Origin: an uncultured Oscillospiraceae bacterium
Lineage (GTDB): Bacteria; Bacillota; Clostridia; Oscillospirales; Oscillospiraceae
Assembly (NCBI GenBank): GCA_947591105.1
Contig: CANQDL010000005.1
Location: 1-43,279, forward strand
Direction of reading: 5' to 3'
DNA: 43,279 nucleotides
In this document: positions 973 through 10,223 of the stretch, piece after piece
Position numbering within the stretch: the stretch's first letter is position 1
How the letters are laid out: the number at the start of each line of letters is the position of its first letter
Notes under the pieces: model-generated
The model's input: the letters and a program-made list of their open reading frames with translations, nothing else
Told to the model about the DNA's origin: nothing
Database searches by the model: none
Position numbers and translations under genes: made by a program

Positions 973-2064
973 ATGCAATATCGCACACTGCCCCACGGCG
1001 GGGAACAGATCGGCATCATCGGCATGGGCTCGGCGGTGGTGGGCCAGCAGAAGGAAAAGGACATCATTGAAACGGTGCGCACGGCGGTGGAGCTGGGCGT
1101 GAACTACTTTGATCTGGCGGCAGGCCACGCTGCCTGCTTCCCGGCCTACGGGAAGGCCCTGGCCGATTGCCGCAAAAACGTGTACTTACAGATCCACTTC
1201 GGCGCCAACTACACCACCGGCGAGTACGGCTGGACCACCGACCTGGATGCCATCAAGCGTTCCATCGGCTGGCAGCTGGACAACCTGAAAACGGACACTA
1301 TCGACTTTGGCTTCATCCACTGTCTGGACGAGCGGACAGACGTGGAGGCATACGAAAAGAGCGGGGCGCTGCAATACGTGCTGGACATGAAGGAGCAGGG
1401 CGTGGTGCGGCACATCGGCCTATCCTCCCACAACCCGGACACGGTCCATCATGTGCTGGACAAGGGCATCGTGGACATGCTCATGTTCTCCATCAACCCC
1501 ATGTACGACTACGGCCAGGGGGAGTACGCCATCGGCTCCGACGGGGAGCGGCAGGCCCTCTACCGCCGATGCGAGGCGGAGGGCGTGGGCATTGCGGTGA
1601 TGAAGCCCTTCAACGCGGGCCAGCTGCTGGACGCGAAGCAATCCCCCTTCAAGCGGGCCCTGACTCCGGCCCAGTGCATCCAATACGCACTGGATAAGCC
1701 CGGCGTGCTCACGGTGCTGCCCGGGGCGGCCAATGTGGACGAGTTGAAGCGGAACCTCGCTTATTTTGATACGTCCGACGAGGAGCGGGACTATTCCGTC
1801 ATCGCCAGTCTCACCCCGGAGGAGTCCCGCGGCCGGTGCGTGTACTGCAACCACTGCGCGCCCTGCCCGGCGGGCCTGAACGTGGGCCTCATCAACAAGT
1901 ATTATGACTTGGCCAAAGCGGGGGACCCGCTGGCGGCGGAGCACTATCACACTCTTGCCAAGACCGCCGCAGACTGCGTGGGCTGCGGGCATTGCGACAG
2001 CCGCTGCCCCTTCCATGTGGAGCAATCGGCCCGGATGAAAGAGATCGCGGCGTATTTCAAATAA
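973..2064 (+). CDS. Aldo/keto reductase with C-terminal 4Fe-4S ferredoxin domain
   Basis: A 363-residue cytosolic oxidoreductase. Residues 1 to about 270 form an AKR-type TIM barrel (GMGSAVVG, NYFDLAAG, IDFGFIHCLDE, HIGLSSHN, MKPFNAGQ). Residues 285 on carry two cysteine clusters, CVYCNHCAPCP and CVGCGHCDSRCP, of the 4Fe-4S type that close this AKR subfamily. The tail suggests electron transfer between an iron-sulphur donor and the barrel site. The catalytic Asp, Tyr (FPAYG) and His are visible, but the usual catalytic Lys position (VYLQIH) looks like Gln. Start is ATG 973 with AAGGAGG nine bases upstream. It is monocistronic, ending in a hairpin at 2086-2114. Substrate unknown. Confidence 0.9.
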   Translation: MQYRTLPHGGEQIGIIGMGSAVVGQQKEKDIIETVRTAVELGVNYFDLAAGHAACFPAYGKALADCRKNVYLQIHFGANYTTGEYGWTTDLDAIKRSIGWQLDNLKTDTIDFGFIHCLDERTDVEAYEKSGALQYVLDMKEQGVVRHIGLSSHNPDTVHHVLDKGIVDMLMFSINPMYDYGQGEYAIGSDGERQALYRRCEAEGVGIAVMKPFNAGQLLDAKQSPFKRALTPAQCIQYALDKPGVLTVLPGAANVDELKRNLAYFDTSDEERDYSVIASLTPEESRGRCVYCNHCAPCPAGLNVGLINKYYDLAKAGDPLAAEHYHTLAKTAADCVGCGHCDSRCPFHVEQSARMKEIAAYFK

Positions 2065-2702: not shown

Positions 2703-3293
2703 ATGCAGAGATGCCCCTGGTGCCTGATGAACGAGCGGCAGACGCGCTACCACGACGAGGAGTGGGGCGTGCCGGTCCATGACGACCGCAAGCAGTTTGA
2801 GTTTCTCATGCTGGAGGCCATGCAGTGCGGCCTCAGCTGGGACACGGTGCTGCGGAAGCGGGAGATATTCCGCGGCTGCTTTGATGGGTTTGACTTCGAC
2901 AAGGTGGCGGCCTATACCGACGAGGATGTGGACCGCATCATGGCCGCGCCCGGCATGATCCGCTCCCGGCGGAAGATCGAGGCAGTCATCAACAATGCCC
3001 GGTGCGTACAGCGCATCCGGGCGGAGTTCGGTTCCTTTTCTAATTATCTCTGGGGCTGGACGAATGGGAAGACGATGCTCTATAAGGGCCATGAGCTGGG
3101 CCACATCCCGGCGTCCAACGATCTCTCCGATCGCATTGCCAAGGACCTGAAAAAGCGGGGCATGAAGTACATCGGCAGCGTGACCGTCTACGCCCACCTG
3201 CAGGCCTGCGGGATCATCAACGACCATGTGAAGGAGTGCTTTCGGTATCGGGAGTTGGTGGAGAGCACGGATACGGAATGGGTGGAGGAATGA
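2703..3293 (+). CDS. tag: DNA-3-methyladenine glycosylase I
   Basis: Removes 3-methyladenine from alkylated DNA as the first step of base-excision repair. The 196-residue length is typical. The family's opening is present: RCPWC, YHDEEWGVPVHDD, QFEFLMLEAMQCGLSW. The zinc-binding residues known from E. coli Tag are visible as Cys4, His17 and the C-terminal His and Cys of NDHVKEC. The helix-turn region KKRGMKYIGSVTVYAHLQACG matches the family C-terminal block. Start ATG 2703 has AAGGAG six bases upstream. A second alkylation-repair gene (ogt) lies at 19725-20222, far away in another operon. Confidence 0.95.
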   Translation: MQRCPWCLMNERQTRYHDEEWGVPVHDDRKQFEFLMLEAMQCGLSWDTVLRKREIFRGCFDGFDFDKVAAYTDEDVDRIMAAPGMIRSRRKIEAVINNARCVQRIRAEFGSFSNYLWGWTNGKTMLYKGHELGHIPASNDLSDRIAKDLKKRGMKYIGSVTVYAHLQACGIINDHVKECFRYRELVESTDTEWVEE

Positions 3294-3376: not shown

Positions 3377-4612
3377 TTAATCCATAAAGGCACTGAATAT
3401 GCTTTCCAGAAGTATAATCATTTCGGACCACTGCTCTGCATCAAATGTATTGCTTTCTGTGGCCACATTCAATTTTTGCCTGAACCGTTCTTGGATTTGC
3501 CCCTTGTGTATGATCTCGCCTTGATATGTTTGCGTTTTATCCACAAAGCCTTTCCATTGGATAGGAACATAATTGCCATTTTCTTGTAATATATCACGGC
3601 CTAAATACAATTCAATAGAGCAAGCTTTACCATTAATATTCGTTTTTTCGTTCCTGATGGGGCCCAAAGTGGGATAGTCATTTGCCAGCTCCAGATCTGG
3701 CAAATGCATTGCCCGGAAATTATTGGGCAGCGCTATCTTGTTCAGTTCTGTCAGTTCCGCTAATCCGGCGGCATCATTATCATACAGAGCAATAACCCGA
3801 TTTTGTATACCGGAAGCGATGAATAATTTGAAATAATGCGTTAAGAAACTTGTGCTACCTTGTATCTTGTAGTCAGAGAAATTGACAAAAGAGTAGCACT
3901 TTTCCAAATGGGGATAGAGAAGATGCATTGCGCATGATATAACGTTTGCGTCAAATTTACCTTCTGTCAATATAATCGTTTTTGGAACGAGAAAATCTTC
4001 TGGCTGAGGAAGACCATCACACCATCCCCCGTCATAGAGATAGGTATAATCAAGAGTTACTTCATCCTCGGGATTAAATGCGTCCAAAAGTATACGAAAA
4101 ATACTCCAGTGGTCGATGTAATCGCGTTCCAGACCAAAAAAGTCCTCATCAAAAGGTAGACTGTCTAATACTGTTTTCTCTGCAAACGTTGTCGCTTGAT
4201 TTCGTGCGACCTCCAGATGCTTATAGCTGTTGGTATCATGATCATATTCATCATCCGATAAAATTTTCGCATATTTTTTAGCTGCTTCGCTCCATTCCTG
4301 AAAGCTAAAATGATACAGGAGATTATTCTCTTGCTCTTTGTCTCCAACATCCTGCGCGTATTCAAGTTTTGACTGTTTAGCCCGCTCAAAGTCTTCTTTA
4401 GCGTTAGCAATGGTATGTCCTAGACAGTCCAGACATTTTTTTGCTCGTGCAACAGATGTTTGAAAATATCGTTTTTCAAAGAATTCATCATCTTCTGTTT
4501 CTTGGCAGACCTTCAGATCATCTGGTGAGAATATTAGCAATAGCGGTCCGAAGGAATTTTTCCATGACAAGTAATCATACCCACCAATAGTGATAGACAC
4601 CCATTCACCCAT
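3377..4612 (-). CDS. HEPN/Toprim-type protein, candidate phage-defence component
   Basis: A 411-residue soluble protein. The N-terminus (MGEWVSITIGGYDYLSWKNS) resembles the HEPN/Toprim N-terminal domain, in which a short beta start precedes a helical domain (about 50-150, coiled-coil-like with many Lys and Glu). A Toprim core follows at about 210-290: IILTEGKFDANVIS with Glu217, then VIALYDNDAAG with Asp278 and Asp280, the acidic triad used for metal-dependent nuclease or topoisomerase-primase chemistry. The canonical HEPN RNase R-x4-6-H motif was not seen clearly. Such proteins occur as defence or abortive-infection genes; that role is inferred here. It lies 92 bases downstream of a membrane-protein gene on the same strand and near a serine recombinase. 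Its composition is far lower in GC than the flanking chromosome, which suggests transfer. Confidence 0.75.
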   Translation of the reverse strand: MGEWVSITIGGYDYLSWKNSFGPLLLIFSPDDLKVCQETEDDEFFEKRYFQTSVARAKKCLDCLGHTIANAKEDFERAKQSKLEYAQDVGDKEQENNLLYHFSFQEWSEAAKKYAKILSDDEYDHDTNSYKHLEVARNQATTFAEKTVLDSLPFDEDFFGLERDYIDHWSIFRILLDAFNPEDEVTLDYTYLYDGGWCDGLPQPEDFLVPKTIILTEGKFDANVISCAMHLLYPHLEKCYSFVNFSDYKIQGSTSFLTHYFKLFIASGIQNRVIALYDNDAAGLAELTELNKIALPNNFRAMHLPDLELANDYPTLGPIRNEKTNINGKACSIELYLGRDILQENGNYVPIQWKGFVDKTQTYQGEIIHKGQIQERFRQKLNVATESNTFDAEQWSEMIILLESIFSAFMD

Positions 4613-4704: not shown

Positions 4705-5571
4705 TTATATTACATTGTATATTGCTGATTGTAGCTTTTTAACGTCAAGTACTTCTCTTTTATACTTCCCGGACATAAGAGAAAAGTCATCTTTGAGTTT
4801 TTCCTGTACATAGTTTGAAGCATCGATGACCAATCCTTTTCCGCTATGTTCGTTCAAGTATTCCACAGTCAGTTTCTTTACTCGCTCCGTATAGTTTTCC
4901 TGAAAGAAAGACTCAAAGGCAATGAAACTCTTATCCGCTTTCCAAGAGGAGAGTTCTTTTTTCCCGTCGGCGAAGATTCCAAGGTTTATCATGGTTGAAA
5001 AAATATCAAAATCATCTCGGCTGCTTATAATGCTATATCTTCTTGCCTCTAACAGCGCCTTGGCGCTGACGTCATCCTTTTTTGCTATACAGTTATTGAG
5101 CATGTCGACTAGTGAAAACTCGTTCAAAAGATATTTTGTATAGTTGTATTTTAAATAAGGCGAGCATTGTTTATATAAATTGAACCAATTGTTTGGGTAA
5201 ATGATAGAAGGCATGTATTTATGTGATAAGCCATTGTTCAATGCTGAAATTTGCTGATTGACAGCATATATGATATCATGAAGCATACTTGCACATTTTT
5301 TGGCTTCAGAGTAATTTCGCCTGTTTTCGTTATTTATTGTCAACAGCACAATTACAATCGATATACCGGTCGAACCAGCTATTCCAAGAAATGTAACTTG
5401 ATTCAGTGATAGATAATCTGCGAGATGTAGCGAGGCGAGTAGAATAAGAACAATTGCAAGTACTCCAAGCCATACGCATATACCCCCAAGAGGCTTTTTA
5501 AATCTTTGCATGTTATAACTGGTAATGCCATCTACAGTGGTGTAAGTGAATGACTTCTTTTTGCAGTTCAT
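4705..5571 (-). CDS. Two-helix membrane protein, partner of the HEPN/Toprim gene
   Basis: A 288-residue protein with an approximately 28-residue basic N-terminus, two hydrophobic segments at about 29-51 (GGICVWLGVLAIVLILLASL) and 59-80 (VTFLGIAGSTGISIVIVLL), then about 200 residues of soluble, mostly helical sequence (from NNENRRNYSEAKKCASML on). With a short loop between the helices, both ends should face the cytoplasm. I do not recognise the soluble domain. It is the first gene of an AT-rich two-gene minus-strand operon with a clear promoter (5609-5637) and an AAAGGAA ribosome site nine bases before the ATG. Pairing with a Toprim protein beside a recombinase suggests a membrane effector in a defence pair, which is inference only. 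Confidence 0.7.
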   Translation of the reverse strand: MNCKKKSFTYTTVDGITSYNMQRFKKPLGGICVWLGVLAIVLILLASLHLADYLSLNQVTFLGIAGSTGISIVIVLLTINNENRRNYSEAKKCASMLHDIIYAVNQQISALNNGLSHKYMPSIIYPNNWFNLYKQCSPYLKYNYTKYLLNEFSLVDMLNNCIAKKDDVSAKALLEARRYSIISSRDDFDIFSTMINLGIFADGKKELSSWKADKSFIAFESFFQENYTERVKKLTVEYLNEHSGKGLVIDASNYVQEKLKDDFSLMSGKYKREVLDVKKLQSAIYNVI

Positions 5572-5849: not shown

Positions 5850-5878
5850 TTGCCAACGGGCGGGAAATGTGATACAAT
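5850..5878 (+). promoter_or_regulatory. Promoter of the serine recombinase
   Basis: TTGCCA (5850-5855), 17-base spacer, TACAAT (5873-5878). The start point is expected near 5885, about 17-30 bases before the candidate start codons. Confidence 0.75.
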
Positions 5879-5901
5879 GATAAACAATCAATAACGAAAA
5901 T

Positions 5902-7854
5902 TTGGTGATAACATTGATAGAACATCATGACATCGCGGGGTACTGCCGGATATCGGTGGACGAGGACGTGGGGCGGGAGAATGTGTCCATCGAGAACCAG
6001 AAGGCCATCATCGAGGACTTCGTAAAGCGCCGGTTTCCGGGAAGCACCCTCACCATGTACGAGGACCGGGACCGGTCCGGGTACAGCTTCACCCAGCGGG
6101 AGGGCTACCAGGCCATGCGGCCCAAGCTGCTCTGCCATCAGTATGACATCCTGATCGTCAAGGACTTCTCCCGATTCTCCCGGCGAACCAGCCGGGGGCT
6201 GGTGGAGCTGGAGGATCTGCGGGACGCGGGGGCGCGGATCATCGCCATTGACGACAACATCGACTTCCCCCAGTCGGATCAGTGGGAGAACATCATCCTC
6301 CGGTTTTTCCTCAACGAGATGCCGGTGACGGACAGTTCCCGAAAGGTGCGGTCGGTCATCACCCGCCGGCAGCAGGACGGGGAGTGGATCTGCGCCGCGC
6401 CCTACGGGTACATCCTCAAGGGCAAGGGGTTCGAGGTGGTGCCTGTGGAGGCGGACGTGATCCGGCAGATATTCCGGCTCTATCTGGACGGCTGGGGCTA
6501 CAAGAAGATCGCAAACCACCTCACTGACCAGCACATCCCCACGCCCCGGATGGCGGAGCGGGAGCGCAAGGAGGCGGAGGGGGCCGACTACCGCCGGACG
6601 GTGAAGCCGGAGTGGAGCATCGCCACCGTCCAGACCATCCTGGACAACGACTTTTACATCGGCACCCTCCGGCAGGGCAAATTCACCCGCCGCTCCATCA
6701 ATGGCCGGGATATGCGCCGGGACCAGACGGCCCAGCTGGTCTTTGAAAACCACCACCAGCCCATCATCGACTACCGCACCTTCGCCGCGGCCCGGGAGGC
6801 CCGGCAGCGCCGCTCCGTCAGCTGCTACCGGGGCAATAAGAAGTACGACAATATGTACTCCGGCTTTCTCTGGTGCGGGGACTGCGGCAGCCCCATGTTC
6901 GCCATGAGCACGCCCCGCCTCCGGGAGGCCTACCGCTGCGGGCTCTATCACCGCCGGGGGTTGAAGGGCTGCACCAGCCACCACATCCGGGCCGACAGGC
7001 TGGACGAGGTGTTGAAGCAGTACATCCAAAAGGTGATGGAGAGCTCCGCCGCCATGCTGGCCCGGCTGAACGCGGACCTGAAAAACGAGGACCGGGACGT
7101 ATCTCAGACGGAGACGGCCATGGAGAACCTGGAGAAGGTCCGGGAGCAGCTCCAGGAGGAACTGAAGGCCACCAAGCGCCAGCGGATACGGGACATCATG
7201 AAACACCCGGAGAACGAGGCGCTGCTGGAGGAGACCTACGACGAGATGGAGACGGACCTGACAGGCCGCATCGAGGCCATCCAGACCCAGATCGAGATGA
7301 CCGCCCACCGGCGCAACACCATCATCCGGGTGGACCGGGCGGCCAAGACGGCCATGGACATCTTCGACGACATCCTCCACAAGCCCAGGCTGGACAAGAA
7401 CGACCTGGCCCTCATCGTGGAGCGGATCACGGTCTGGGAGGACCACATCGACGTGCAGCTGAAACCCGACGTGGACAGCATCCTCCGCACGGGGATGCTC
7501 CCGGAGGAGGAAGCGGCAAATTTTAAGTCCGGCACCGTGGATAACTTACAGACCCAGGTCGTCCAGACGTCCTCCAGGCGGGCGGACAAGGTCTACGGTG
7601 TCAACCTTATCAGTGTCGGGTCACCCTCGCGGATGCGCATGGTGCGGCGGATCTCCTTTGGGATGACCACCCGGCCCAGGTCGTCGATGCGCCGCACGAT
7701 CCCTGTTGCTTTCATCTTTATCCTCCTGTCATCTTTTTGTCGGACAGGATTTATTATCCGCAAAAGTCTCAAACCTATACTGCCTGCCGAAAATTGGCAG
7801 AACCGGGCCGAAACCCGCGCCGGCGCTTGCGCCCGGTCATGGGGTATGGTATAA
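5902..7854 (+). CDS. Large serine recombinase whose frame runs through an attachment junction
   Basis: Site-specific integrase/excisionase of the large serine recombinase family. The N-terminal resolvase domain (about 10-150) has the catalytic Ser in AGYCRIS and the VKDFSRFSRR active-site block. A recombinase domain follows (about 165-285, APYGYILKGKGFEVV, WSIATVQTILDNDFYIG), then a zinc ribbon (about 318-365, CGDCGSP and CGLYHRRGLKGC) and a coiled coil (about 375-470). Start is a non-ATG codon: TTG 5902, GTG 5905 or TTG 5914; GGTGAT at 5904-5909 could serve the last. The family-like part ends near residue 572 (VYGVNLISVGS). From there to 7854 the frame is only the antisense of a spoVT fragment and its upstream region, so the last 78 or so residues come from host DNA after integration. 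In the excised circle the C-terminus would differ. Confidence 0.9.
   Translation: MVITLIEHHDIAGYCRISVDEDVGRENVSIENQKAIIEDFVKRRFPGSTLTMYEDRDRSGYSFTQREGYQAMRPKLLCHQYDILIVKDFSRFSRRTSRGLVELEDLRDAGARIIAIDDNIDFPQSDQWENIILRFFLNEMPVTDSSRKVRSVITRRQQDGEWICAAPYGYILKGKGFEVVPVEADVIRQIFRLYLDGWGYKKIANHLTDQHIPTPRMAERERKEAEGADYRRTVKPEWSIATVQTILDNDFYIGTLRQGKFTRRSINGRDMRRDQTAQLVFENHHQPIIDYRTFAAAREARQRRSVSCYRGNKKYDNMYSGFLWCGDCGSPMFAMSTPRLREAYRCGLYHRRGLKGCTSHHIRADRLDEVLKQYIQKVMESSAAMLARLNADLKNEDRDVSQTETAMENLEKVREQLQEELKATKRQRIRDIMKHPENEALLEETYDEMETDLTGRIEAIQTQIEMTAHRRNTIIRVDRAAKTAMDIFDDILHKPRLDKNDLALIVERITVWEDHIDVQLKPDVDSILRTGMLPEEEAANFKSGTVDNLQTQVVQTSSRRADKVYGVNLISVGSPSRMRMVRRISFGMTTRPRSSMRRTIPVAFIFILLSSFCRTGFIIRKSLKPILPAENWQNRAETRAGACARSWGMV
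7593..7715 (-). pseudogene. spoVT: 5' fragment of a spoVT/AbrB-family gene cut by integration
   Basis: SpoVT is a sporulation transcription factor with an N-terminal AbrB swapped-hairpin DNA-binding domain and a C-terminal GAF domain, about 180 residues. Here the ATG (7715-7713) has GGAGG at good distance and the first 33 residues (MKATGIVRRIDDLGRVVIPK, then EIRRTMRIREGDP) agree almost completely with the well-known SpoVT start. Right after GDP the family sequence stops; seven unrelated residues and TAG follow, made of recombinase-gene DNA. The rest of the gene is not in the window. On the minus strand upstream, GTATA (7780-7776), 17 bases and GATAATA (7758-7752) loosely resemble a sigma-G promoter, which would fit spoVT but is weak evidence. 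The intact 5' end and ribosome site suggest a split gene, not old decay. Confidence 0.85.
7611..7622. other. Probable attachment-site junction (right end of the element)
   Basis: This is where spoVT homology (Gly-Asp-Pro codons at 7625-7617, minus strand) gives way to recombinase-gene sequence. The crossover dinucleotide lies in or beside these bases. No second copy of this junction was found elsewhere in the window, so the left end is probably outside it. Confidence 0.55.
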
Positions 7855-7939: not shown

Positions 7940-7969
7940 TTAAGAATGAATTAAGCTTTGGTCTATAAT
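7940..7969 (+). promoter_or_regulatory. Promoter upstream of the NlpC/P60 gene (proximal)
   Basis: TTAAGA (7940-7945), 18-base spacer, TATAAT (7964-7969). The expected start point (about 7976) puts the hairpin at 7985-8023 at the very 5' end of the message. Confidence 0.5.
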
Positions 7970-7984
7970 TTGGCCACATGTTTG

Positions 7985-8023
7985 CCTCCTGTCCGTGTTA
8001 TGCTGGATAAAACGGACGGGAGG
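7985..8023 (+). promoter_or_regulatory. Hairpin that hides the ribosome site of the NlpC/P60 gene
   Basis: CCTCCTGTCCGT (7985-7996) pairs over 12 bases, one of them a G-T pair, with ACGGACGGGAGG (8012-8023) around a 15-base loop. The GGGAGG ribosome site (8018-8023) is entirely within the stem. The 7-12 bases upstream also read AGGAGG on the minus strand, but no minus-strand gene starts here. Confidence 0.6.
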
Positions 8024-8032
8024 CGATGGACT

Positions 8033-8767
8033 GTGCAGACGGAAAAGACCGTCAAAAGGCGGGTGCGGGCGGAGCTGGCCGCGGCGGCGCTGCTGGCGCT
8101 GATCGCGCTGCTGCTGGCGCTGGCCAGGTGCGGCTGCAGGCCGGGGGACATCCTGTCCGTGCTGACCGGCCGGGGCGCGATCCTCCAGTGGCAGAGGGGA
8201 AGATTCGTCTATGTGGAGCGGGGCGAGAACCGCTCCAACGACATCGACCAGAGCCGCCTGGCCGACCTGGACGCAAAGACTGCCCGGGGACTGGCGTCCT
8301 GGGCGGAGATGGCCTGGGACAACCGGTGGGGCTATGTGTGGGGCACCTTCGGGGACGTGCTGGACGAGGATCTGCTGGAATACAAGCTGGAGCAGTTCGG
8401 CCAGAAGGTGCAGGAGCACGAGTCCGTGATCCGCAAGAAGTGGATGGATCGGCGCACCGTGGACTGCGCCGGGCTGATCAAGAGCTACTGCTGGTACGAC
8501 CCCGGCGCCAACCAGATCCGCTACGGGGGCGGGGACATGCCCGACGTGGGCACCGACGGGTTCTATGACCTGGCGCCGGAGAAGGGGCCCATCGACACCC
8601 TGCCGGAGACGCCGGGTCTGCTGGTGTACGCCCCGGGCCACATAGGGGTGTACGTAGGCGGCGGGTGGGCCGTGGAGGCCATCTCCCACGCCGGCGGCGT
8701 GGTCAAGACCCGGGTGGCCGACCGCACCTGGACGCACTGGCTCCAATGCCCGTACATCCAATATTGA
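8033..8767 (+). CDS. Membrane-anchored NlpC/P60-type peptidoglycan hydrolase
   Basis: A 244-residue protein. A basic N-terminus (KTVKRRVR) precedes one strong hydrophobic helix (about 15-32, AAAALLALIALLLALA), followed by the extracellular domain. NlpC/P60 features are the WGYVWGTFGDV block, the nucleophile Cys in VDCAGLI (about residue 145) and the catalytic His in APGHIGVYVG (about 203). The family cleaves peptide bonds in peptidoglycan stems. I chose GTG 8033 as the start because GGGAGG lies nine bases before it; an ATG at 8000 is in frame but sits in the hairpin loop without a ribosome site. The asnS promoter overlaps the last codons. Confidence 0.8.
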   Translation: MQTEKTVKRRVRAELAAAALLALIALLLALARCGCRPGDILSVLTGRGAILQWQRGRFVYVERGENRSNDIDQSRLADLDAKTARGLASWAEMAWDNRWGYVWGTFGDVLDEDLLEYKLEQFGQKVQEHESVIRKKWMDRRTVDCAGLIKSYCWYDPGANQIRYGGGDMPDVGTDGFYDLAPEKGPIDTLPETPGLLVYAPGHIGVYVGGGWAVEAISHAGGVVKTRVADRTWTHWLQCPYIQY

Positions 8768-8828: not shown

Positions 8829-10223
8829 ATGACCAGAACAAAGATCGCCCGGCTTTGGCAGGACGCTTCTTCATATGCGGACGCGGACGTCACCGTCTGC
8901 GGCTGGGCGCGGACCATACGGGATCAGAAGAATTTCGGCTTTATCGACTTAAACGACGGCAGCGCCTTCAAGGGCGTGCAGATCGTGTTCGAGCGGGCCG
9001 TTTTGGACAATTATGACGAGATCGCCCGGCTCAACGTGGGCGCGGCGCTGATCGTGACCGGCAAGCTGGTGCTGACCCCCCAGGCCAAGCAGCCCTTTGA
9101 GATCAAGGCGAAGAGCATCGCCGTGGAGGGCGTGTCCGCCCCGGACTACCCCCTGCAGAAAAAGCGCCACACGGTGGAGTATCTGCGCACCATACAGCAT
9201 CTGCGGCCCAGGACGAACCTATTCTCCGCGGCCTTCCGGGTGCGCTCCGTGGCGGCCCAGGCCGTCCACGAGTTCTTCCAGAGCCGGGGATTCGTGTACG
9301 TGCACACCCCCATCATCACCGGCTCCGACTGCGAGGGCGCCGGGGAGATGTTCCGGGTCACCACCATTGATCCGGACAACCCGCCCCGGAAAGAGGACGG
9401 CTCCGTGGACTTCTCCCAGGACTTCTTCGGAAAGGCTACCAATCTGACCGTGTCCGGCCAGCTGAACGCAGAGAACTTCGCCATGGCCTTCGGGGACGTG
9501 TACACCTTCGGCCCCACCTTCCGGGCGGAAAATTCCAACACCCAGCGCCACGCGGCGGAGTTCTGGATGATTGAGCCGGAGATGGCCTTCTGCGATCTGG
9601 AGGGCGATTTGGAGTGCATGGAGGCCATGGTGAAGCACATCATCAACACCGTGCTGGAAAAGTGCCCCCAGGAGATGGAGTTTTTCAACGCCTTTGTGGA
9701 CAAGGGCCTGCTGGAGCGGCTGCGCCATGTGGCGGGCAGCGACTTTGCCCGGGTCACGTATACCGAGGCGGTGGCGCTTTTGGAAAAGTCCGGCGCGGAC
9801 TTTAAGTACCCGGTGTCCTGGGGCATGGATCTGCAGACCGAGCATGAGCGGTATCTGACCGAGCAGATCTACAAACGGCCGGTGTTCGTCACCGACTATC
9901 CCAAGCAGATCAAGGCCTTTTACATGCGCCTGAACGACGACGGCAAGACCGTGGCCGCGGCGGACTGCCTGGTGCCGGGCATTGGGGAGATCATCGGCGG
10001 CAGCCAGCGCGAGGAACGGCTGGACGTGCTTACCGCCCGGATGGCCGAGCTGGGCCTCAAGCAGGAGGACTACTGGTGGTATCTGGATCTGCGCCGCTAC
10101 GGCTCCTGCCGCCACGCGGGCTTTGGCCTGGGCTTTGAGCGGATGGTGATGTATCTGACCGGCATCTCCAACATCCGGGACGTGGAGCTGCACCCCCGCA
10201 CGGTGGGCAACGCGGAGTTCTGA
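8829..10223 (+). CDS. asnS: Asparagine--tRNA ligase
   Basis: Charges tRNA-Asn with asparagine in the cytoplasm. The 464-residue class IIb synthetase has an N-terminal OB-fold anticodon-binding domain (about 15-105, [20 protein letters not shown]), then a catalytic domain with motif 1 ([20 protein letters not shown]), motif 2 ([20 protein letters not shown]) and motif 3 ([15 protein letters not shown]). The pattern GEMFRVTT and the EFWMIEPEM block identify AsnRS and not AspRS. Start ATG 8829 has GGGAGG ten bases upstream. It is transcribed alone from 8764-8792 and ends at a bidirectional terminator shared with cls. No T-box leader is visible; the leader is too short. Confidence 0.96.

Follow-up and report, generated by a model that had tools for sequence, protein, structure and literature searches.

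A serine recombinase element that splits the forespore gene spoVT across many genera of gut Clostridia

Sporulation genes can be split by intervening elements that bring their own recombinases. According to the available portions of PMC6957869 and PMC5025042, the skin elements divide sigK in Bacillus subtilis and Clostridioides difficile, encode a serine recombinase, must be removed to rejoin the gene for sporulation and, in skin, take their direction from a recombination directionality factor (RDF). In the available part of PMC5595907, the gin element in gerE of Bacillus cereus ATCC10987 likewise splits the gene of a sporulation DNA-binding regulator, with a 9-bp overlap, serine recombinases and no phage genes. 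SP-beta in spsM, vfbin in spoVFB and vrin in spoVR also carry recombinases that rejoin a split sporulation gene, and the yin element lies within yabG of Clostridium botulinum (PMC4191935 and PMC6957869 for the first three, as far as their available text goes). Almost all published elements of this kind are in mother-cell genes in these accounts, and their survival is explained by the untouched genome of the spore (PMC6957869; also PMC4191935). Here we analyse contig CANQDL010000005.1 of an uncultured Oscillospiraceae bacterium (GCA_947591105.1, our genome G000, a metagenome assembly of 165 contigs that is 78% complete); the window is this entire contig (C5), 43,279 bases in length. It contains part of a split spoVT, the gene of a forespore regulator. 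We consider it likely that codon 32 of this gene has been entered by a site-specific intervening element, of which the window shows the left end, and that excision of the element rejoins spoVT.

The open reading frame (ORF) at 7593-7715 of the minus strand translates as MKATGIVRRIDDLGRVVIPKEIRRTMRIREGDPTLIRLTP followed by a stop, and its residues 2-36 match the NCBIfam profile TIGR02851 (spore_V_T; E 4.1e-18). SpoVT letters last to codon 33, a proline, after which element DNA adds seven residues (TLIRLTP) before the stop at 7593. The AbrB-type DNA-binding domain at residues 7-33 covers only profile positions 1-27 of 48, and the element thus cuts inside this domain. Because the window begins at the end of its contig, only the left 7.6 kb of the element can be read beside the 5′ half. 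The first-pass annotation of this DNA had proposed a near-perfect SpoVT start that breaks into recombinase-side DNA, with the ribosome site and upstream region intact and the distal half at the other end of an element behind a matching core. A search set in advance located that half, TIGR02851 positions 27-180 (E 5.8e-43), at G000:C45:13388-13843 on the minus strand, behind the same core, on a 15.7-kb contig that ends 1.9 kb away. The shared 9-bp core, GGTGACCCG on the spoVT strand, encodes G31, D32 and P33 of SpoVT, and joining the two pieces at this core yields an uninterrupted SpoVT of 180 aa, as had been predicted for excision. A second, intact spoVT together with no 3′ half at the other end of an element, or an intact spoVT unrelated to this locus in close relatives that conserve the fragment, had been named as observations that would count against this reading; neither was seen for the window genome. 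At E <= 1, TIGR02851 matches exactly two places in the window genome, the 5′ piece and the 3′ half, and the profile search found no intact spoVT there, an absence that is not final because the assembly is 78% complete; a whole-genome search in 30 further genomes, described below, likewise found no intact copy.

The same rejoining is seen across related elements, which fall into two arrangements. In type A, the window's group, the recombinase gene lies beside the spoVT 5′ half and reads against spoVT; in type B, which accounts for the majority of genomes, it lies beside the 3′ half and reads with spoVT. Joins were made in silico for 13 elements (11 named type B elements, the element of G030, and the window with C45), and in all 13 a cut and join at the dinucleotide GA rebuilds a SpoVT of 177-181 aa. 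Two of the 15 one-contig or window cases were left unjoined: G086, where the core pattern was missed, and G062, whose 5′ piece lacks codons 1-9. The 12 elements for which a length could be obtained span 14.5 to 56.3 kb. The stretch common to the left and right attachment sites (attL and attR) varies from 4 to 17 bp among elements and always includes GACC; in the window it is 9 bp. The joined element site (attP) has imperfect inverted-repeat arms, TTATCAGTG and its mirror, around a central GA. The inverted partner arm, on the far side, reads CACTGATGA at C45 and CACTGATAA in relatives. In the window the centre of the core, placed by arm symmetry and read by eye, is TC on the plus strand and GA on the spoVT strand at 7621-7622. 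On the recombinase strand, the attP centre reads GA in all 11 of the type B elements; in type A (G030, and the window by eye) it is TC. For serine integrases the central dinucleotide sets the orientation of insertion (PMC3556126, in the part available), and the GA and TC centres correspond to insertion of the two types in opposite directions, as this rule predicts.

Since attP lies within the recombinase gene, integration cuts both spoVT and the recombinase gene. Once the element ends are joined, the recombinase frame continues past the core in all 13 cases and gains a tail of 25-30 residues. In integrated type B elements this tail is fused to SpoVT residues 1-33, giving an ORF of 58-60 residues that is conserved in type B, and in integrated type A elements it lies antisense at the far end of the element. 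The ratio of non-synonymous to synonymous polymorphism (pN/pS) of the severed tail in its own frame is 0.30 for type A (n=7), where the two other frames give 1.23 and 1.38, and 0.42 for type B (n=15), where they give 1.07 and 1.05. With the arm excluded the values are 0.24 (others 1.43 and 0.73) and 0.32 (others 1.03 and 1.15), respectively. Two of the seven type A tails come from genomes in which no recombinase was found (G010 and the relic of G026), and G012 was left out, as its core was missed by the pattern. For the SpoVT 3′ half, the median ratio of non-synonymous to synonymous substitution rates (dN/dS) is 0.19 over 21 pairs from seven type A split genomes and 0.137 over 55 pairs from intact genomes; for the recombinase it is 0.15 (10 pairs). 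Purifying selection thus acts on the SpoVT 3′ half and on the recombinase tail that integration cuts off. That two genes split on the chromosome are both kept as whole frames is the best indirect evidence that an excised state occurs and is of consequence.

The split gene is tied to the recombinase within the genus. Both spoVT halves occur in nine of 35 genus genomes, G000 counted in (the others being G004, G012, G015, G021, G027, G029, G030 and G033), and 15 have an intact spoVT; in the remainder we found a single piece, a gene truncated where its contig stops, or no spoVT. A full-length recombinase is present in seven of the 35, all of them split, and was found in no genome among the 15 whose spoVT is intact; in G013, G027 and G029 the recombinase gene runs off the end of its contig. 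The two halves lie on one contig of G030, on the same strand and 40.5 kb apart, and the empty site of the intact genomes G001, G002 and G020 is bounded by the same flanks as the split site of G012, G021 and G029. Split and intact genes are mixed on the tree of the 3′ half, which indicates that the state changes on short time scales. Three genomes appear to have taken another path. In G026 an intact spoVT is followed by cargo genes (tag, an aldo/keto reductase and an HD-type gene), and 15 kb further along the 3′ half occurs once more at a relic attR; the intact spoVT of G006 adjoins the same kind of cargo; and no recombinase was found in either genome. G010 has attR with the 3′ half, a 5′ piece intact to codon 55 at a contig end, and likewise no recombinase that we found. 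These may be elements locked in place after spoVT was healed by other means. Separately, G017 has an intact spoVT on contig C60 together with a more divergent 5′ piece that carries a type B tail (G017:C8:4150-4248); the fragment may come from a second lineage in the bin or have been acquired.

Beyond the genus, the window recombinase was scanned against 84,980 named species genomes, and the best 80 of 197 related stretches were kept as loci. Seventy-two of these run in frame into a SpoVT 3′ half; L117 was assigned by eye and the other 71 by rule. L184 is likewise fused to SpoVT up to a contig end, and L112 stops at the core. Four loci (L107-L110), from metagenome-assembled genomes (MAGs) of rabbit-gut Oscillospiraceae, are of the window type and antisense to the spoVT 5′ half, and L131 is cut by a contig end and has a different C-terminus. 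Whole genomes were searched for spoVT in 30 of the 80 locus-bearing genomes, which were picked for carrying the recombinase. The 3′ half is present in all 30, with an open frame of 719-816 codons shared with the recombinase in 29 (G065 is cut by a contig end). The 5′ piece was found in 26, and in 24 of these it starts at residue 1. In 13 of the 30, a single contig carries first the 5′ piece, then the element and last the recombinase-3′ half. Chakrabartyella piscis (Lachnospirales by NCBI) is among these 13, with a 34 kb element on its complete chromosome, CP092441.1. In an even draw from the window's order, the recombinase was found at E <= 1e-150 in 19 of 245 genomes, G000 included, and in 15 of 127 genera. 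Split spoVT is therefore a widespread family, found in many Oscillospiraceae-type genomes and genera of gut Clostridia. The sporulation gene spoIVA is present in 38 of 38 split genomes. In three of these (Flavonifractor An10, Flavonifractor An306 and Candidatus Intestinimonas stercoravium; G064, G065 and G069) spoIVA too is in two parts, divided around residue 400, for example at G065:C13:22670-23881 and 70213-70494, and in each of the three its 3′ fragment adjoins another, different serine recombinase.

These properties place the spoVT element with the skin-type intervening elements: a sporulation gene is split, both parts are kept, a site-specific recombinase is encoded at the end of the element, and the core restores the frame. 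In addition, the enzyme has the domains of large serine recombinases, and its attP has inverted arms around a central dinucleotide. The first-pass annotation had likened the locus to sigK and spoVFB. This comparison holds for a sporulation gene split by an element with a serine recombinase, and fails for the model of loss in the mother cell, because spoVT is a forespore gene. Upstream of the 5′ piece lies a promoter whose class (forespore, sigma-F/G type) we take from its letters. A GYATA-N16/18-(G/A)AYAMTA box is found in 17 of 19 distinct split upstream regions and 16 of 21 intact ones, against a mean of 0.1 of 40 in plain letter shuffles; the pattern was shaped on the sequences seen and is descriptive. 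Consistently, in the available part of PMC3789822, spoVT of C. difficile is controlled by both sigma-F and sigma-G, and a spoVT mutant did not form heat-resistant spores. The explanation that rests on an untouched spore genome therefore does not apply, and the sigK/spoVFB model cannot be transferred unchanged: with its forespore promoter kept, a rejoined spoVT is needed in a cell of the germ line, either the forespore or its parent.

The described systems differ from the spoVT element at this point and at others. The sigK gene is used in the mother cell, whose genome dies. In the sources as available to us, gin is also in a mother-cell gene, has three recombinase genes and is described from one strain, whereas the family reported here occurs in dozens of species; SP-beta, vfbin and vrin are in mother-cell genes as well, with SP-beta being an active phage whose excision is shown in the mother cell only (PMC4191935, PMC6957869); and yin is prophage-like and lies in another gene. 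The closest analogue for cutting and returning is the comK prophage of Listeria, which is excised outside a terminal cell and which differs in being a phage, triggered in the phagosome, in a gene unrelated to sporulation (PMC6957869 and PMC5025042, in the parts available). The best NCBIfam matches of the window recombinase are CcrB (105.7 bits) and CcrC (83.8) of staphylococcal cassettes and XisF (81.3) of the fdxN element, which have different target genes. The curated cut-offs of these families (900, 900 and 375) are far above the scores, and the window recombinase is thus not a member, nor does it qualify as the Ccr recombinase of a staphylococcal cassette. Among the papers listed by our literature searches, which covered few subscription papers and no preprints, none reports an element that interrupts spoVT; as far as these searches go, a forespore target, an attP within the recombinase gene and a fusion of recombinase and SpoVT have not been described. 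For skin, we know of no attP inside the recombinase gene.

We propose that the recombinase at the element end would cut at the GA dinucleotide common to both ends and rejoin the two halves of spoVT. In the resulting circle, the recombinase would read across the core into its own conserved tail of 25-30 residues. Integration would sever this tail, which in most relatives would be replaced in frame by SpoVT residues 34-180 and in the window, where the element is reversed, by an antisense spoVT frame. The element would be cut out before or in the forespore, stay as a circle in the non-dividing spore and reinsert at outgrowth. As a circle in a non-dividing spore is not diluted, return at outgrowth would be the simplest way for the element to be kept. 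The direction of the reaction may be set by a small protein of ~70-110 residues, the best candidate RDF: across all ORF families, only the recombinase and this protein were found in 14 of 14 one-contig elements (left borders of G062 and G086 set by hand), and the other families in at least four of the 14 all overlap the recombinase gene in another frame. The small gene is near 64 of the 80 recombinases, several of the remaining 16 loci ending within ~1.5 kb upstream, and it occurs in the same seven of 35 genus genomes as the full-length recombinase. It gave no Pfam or PHROG match (three members), only weak scattered NCBIfam matches (48 members), no PDB sequence match better than E 0.033, and no Foldseek match at E <= 0.001 in PDB or BFVD; its AlphaFold model has the order strand-strand-helix-strand-helix, with a predicted local distance difference test score (pLDDT) of 84. 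In the window genome, contig C81 has the small gene together with a serine recombinase 27% identical to that of the window, and C81 may be the missing middle of the element.

Several observations weigh against excision as the fate of this element. The assembled sequences give no direct sign of excision or of a circle. An attR and the tail are retained in G010 and G026, two genomes in which we found no recombinase. In G004 the small gene carries a frameshift, and in the window genome it lies on another contig beside a different recombinase. The promoter of the window recombinase is sigma-A-like. One of the 80 loci (L137) is at a target other than spoVT, with the changed core GCGATTCG. In the 30 genomes, the 5′ piece was not found in four, and in two of the 26 that have it (G062 and G064) it starts at residue 8-9 with codons 1-9 absent, so these two may need a second event or be broken; in G068 the halves lie on one contig in the wrong (reverse) order. 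Contig ends at or near the core were also considered as proof of excision and rejected: in Flavonifractor An10 the contigs end near the core, but their letters diverge immediately beyond it and do not line up as a mixture of excised and integrated forms. G022 ends exactly at the core and L112 within a few bases of it, which is suggestive only and is not used as evidence.

The element could instead be lost at low frequency in growing cells, without developmental control, in the manner of bet-hedging. Only cells that had lost it would then finish spores, their descendants would lack the element, and horizontal re-entry would keep it in the population. The vegetative look of the recombinase promoter fits such an account, as do the differing cargo of the elements, the position of split G021 beside intact G020 and of G010 (attR present) beside intact G002, and the mixing of split and intact spoVT on the tree within the genus, where the type A split rows need seven changes by parsimony, two of them forced by strong branches. 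Selection on the 3′ half is nearly as strong in split as in intact genomes, which points to frequent use of the rejoined gene, and all 30 sampled genomes from many genera are integrated, although they were chosen for carrying the recombinase; on balance we regard rare excision as unlikely. That SpoVT or sporulation is no longer needed and the halves are decaying remnants is considerably harder to sustain. Some 5′ pieces are indeed damaged (G062 and G064), and in several genus genomes, most of them incomplete, no spoVT was found. Both halves and the recombinase are nonetheless under purifying selection, all 13 joins are open, the promoter is kept and spoIVA persists throughout the split genomes, and plain disruption is accordingly improbable.

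Alternatively, the pieces might act as they stand, the protein of SpoVT(1-33) and tail (58-60 residues) and the recombinase-SpoVT(34-180) fusion serving jointly or as new regulators. Conservation of the short ORF in type B and the open fusion frame of most loci would suit this idea. It is very improbable given that the cut falls within the DNA-binding domain and that in type A the tail is unattached to SpoVT yet conserved in frame, with the recombinase unfused to the 3′ half. An assembly or binning artefact was a natural concern for a metagenome assembly with the halves on two contigs. This can practically be discounted: the same junctions recur in independent assemblies, on single contigs and in the complete chromosome of C. 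piscis, which is not a product of binning. Excision that rejoins spoVT remains the reading we prefer.

Features of the window are collected in the table below. The ORF at 7958-8767 is presumably an NlpC protein, and that at 8829-10223 we take to be like asparaginyl-tRNA synthetase.

Table. Features of the element end and its surroundings in the window
Feature	Position	Strand	Basis
attL core, CGGGTCACC on the plus strand and GGTGACCCG on the spoVT strand	7617..7625		identical 9 bp at attR, G000:C45
P-type arm TTATCAGTG, recombinase side of core	7607..7615	+	comparison of ends
spoVT 5′ piece, codons 1-33	7617..7715	-	ORF and NCBIfam profile match
spoVT ribosome site AGGAGGA	7721..7727	-	read from sequence; intact
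Forespore (sigma-F/G) type promoter of spoVT, GTATA-N17-GATAATA	7752..7780	-	sequence and upstream-region pattern count; intact
Large serine recombinase, integrated form, 650 codons open	5902..7854	+	domain matches; start codon uncertain
Sigma-A-like promoter before recombinase, TTGCCA-N17-TACAAT	5850..5878	+	read from sequence, no control
Cargo, protein of no Pfam, NCBIfam or PADLOC family	4705..5571	-	library scans
Cargo, HEPN/Toprim N-terminal domain protein	3377..4612	-	PF18871, E 4.4e-16; no PADLOC match
Cargo, DNA-3-methyladenine glycosylase I (Tag)	2703..3293	+	profile match; also in element of other type A genomes
Cargo, aldo/keto reductase with 4Fe-4S domain	973..2064	+	profile match; also in element of other type A genomes
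Flank ORF	7958..8767	+	same position by spoVT in split and intact relatives; no Pfam match
Flank ORF	8829..10223	+	same position in split and intact relatives

The window recombinase has Resolvase, Recombinase and Zn_ribbon_recom domains and also matches PHROG 95 (integrase). Its family part stops near 7616; the open frame passes through the core into the spoVT piece, which its final residues overlap antisense. Boxes similar to its sigma-A-like promoter were seen by eye in several relatives, an impression and not a count, the recombinase start having been located for only some of the 80. In several type B loci the promoter-like TACAATGTTATCTGC upstream of the recombinase resembles, by eye, the attP arm AATGTTATCAGTG, and from this likeness the recombinase might bind its own promoter. 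Five type B loci (L052, L221, L231, L230 and L219) contain a copy resembling the left half of the chromosomal site attB (CGTGCGTATCCGAGAGGG and variants), ~55 bases past the stop codon of the tail, which may be a remnant of stacked insertions or an extra recombinase site. The 5′ pieces of G062, G064 and G004:C22 begin near codon 10 and are preceded by a conserved CTTGACAYAWTRGGACGAT, which looks as though another element used a second spoVT site and left the gene in three parts.

Cargo differs among the elements. That of G030 includes a BREX-like set, with matches to DndA, BrxC, BrxP and PglZ, and that of G072 and C. piscis includes transporters, a CoA-transferase, a glycyl radical enzyme and an aldolase. 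Ten cargo proteins from G072 and G060 gave four PHROG matches, all of unknown function, and for most of them Pfam names metabolic or transport families; none of the ten falls in a phage structural PHROG category. The cargo inspected, a small sample, is metabolic or defence-related, which differs from the prophage-like elements of other spore formers with which the first-pass annotation compared the locus. An ordinary prophage was set aside as the source: IMG/VR gave only two relatives, both themselves fused to SpoVT. Of two unverified GenBank clones labelled 'Bacteriophage sp.' that also carry relatives, MT836658 is fused to SpoVT and MT839487 stops before the core. A plasmid origin was likewise rejected: 205 plasmid records match, all at <60% identity, and the ten matches listed are at <30%.

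An attP inside the recombinase gene makes this a natural integrase whose C-terminus changes with each reaction. In phage serine integrases, a directionality factor fused to the C-terminus reverses the direction of the reaction (PMC5737554, in the part available). It is tempting to speculate, though we hold this tentatively, that the recombinase fused to the sensor domain of SpoVT (in the window type, the foreign-tailed one) excises, that excision heals both SpoVT and the native tail to make the integrating form, and that the element returns at germination. If so, either state of the DNA would specify the enzyme that performs the reverse reaction, and each spore generation would see a developmental gene cut and healed once. 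The family occurs in many genera of gut Clostridia, including cultured isolates and a complete genome, which makes these ideas testable now. Cultured commensals that carry the split include Agathobaculum butyriciproducens DSM 100391, C. piscis BP5G and Flavonifractor sp. An100. More broadly, spoVT breaks the rule that such elements are lost only in the dying mother cell, as the chromosome of the forespore becomes that of the spore. If spoVT is rejoined in the forespore, the element either returns, which would be a programmed and reversible rearrangement of the germ line, or must keep re-entering populations.

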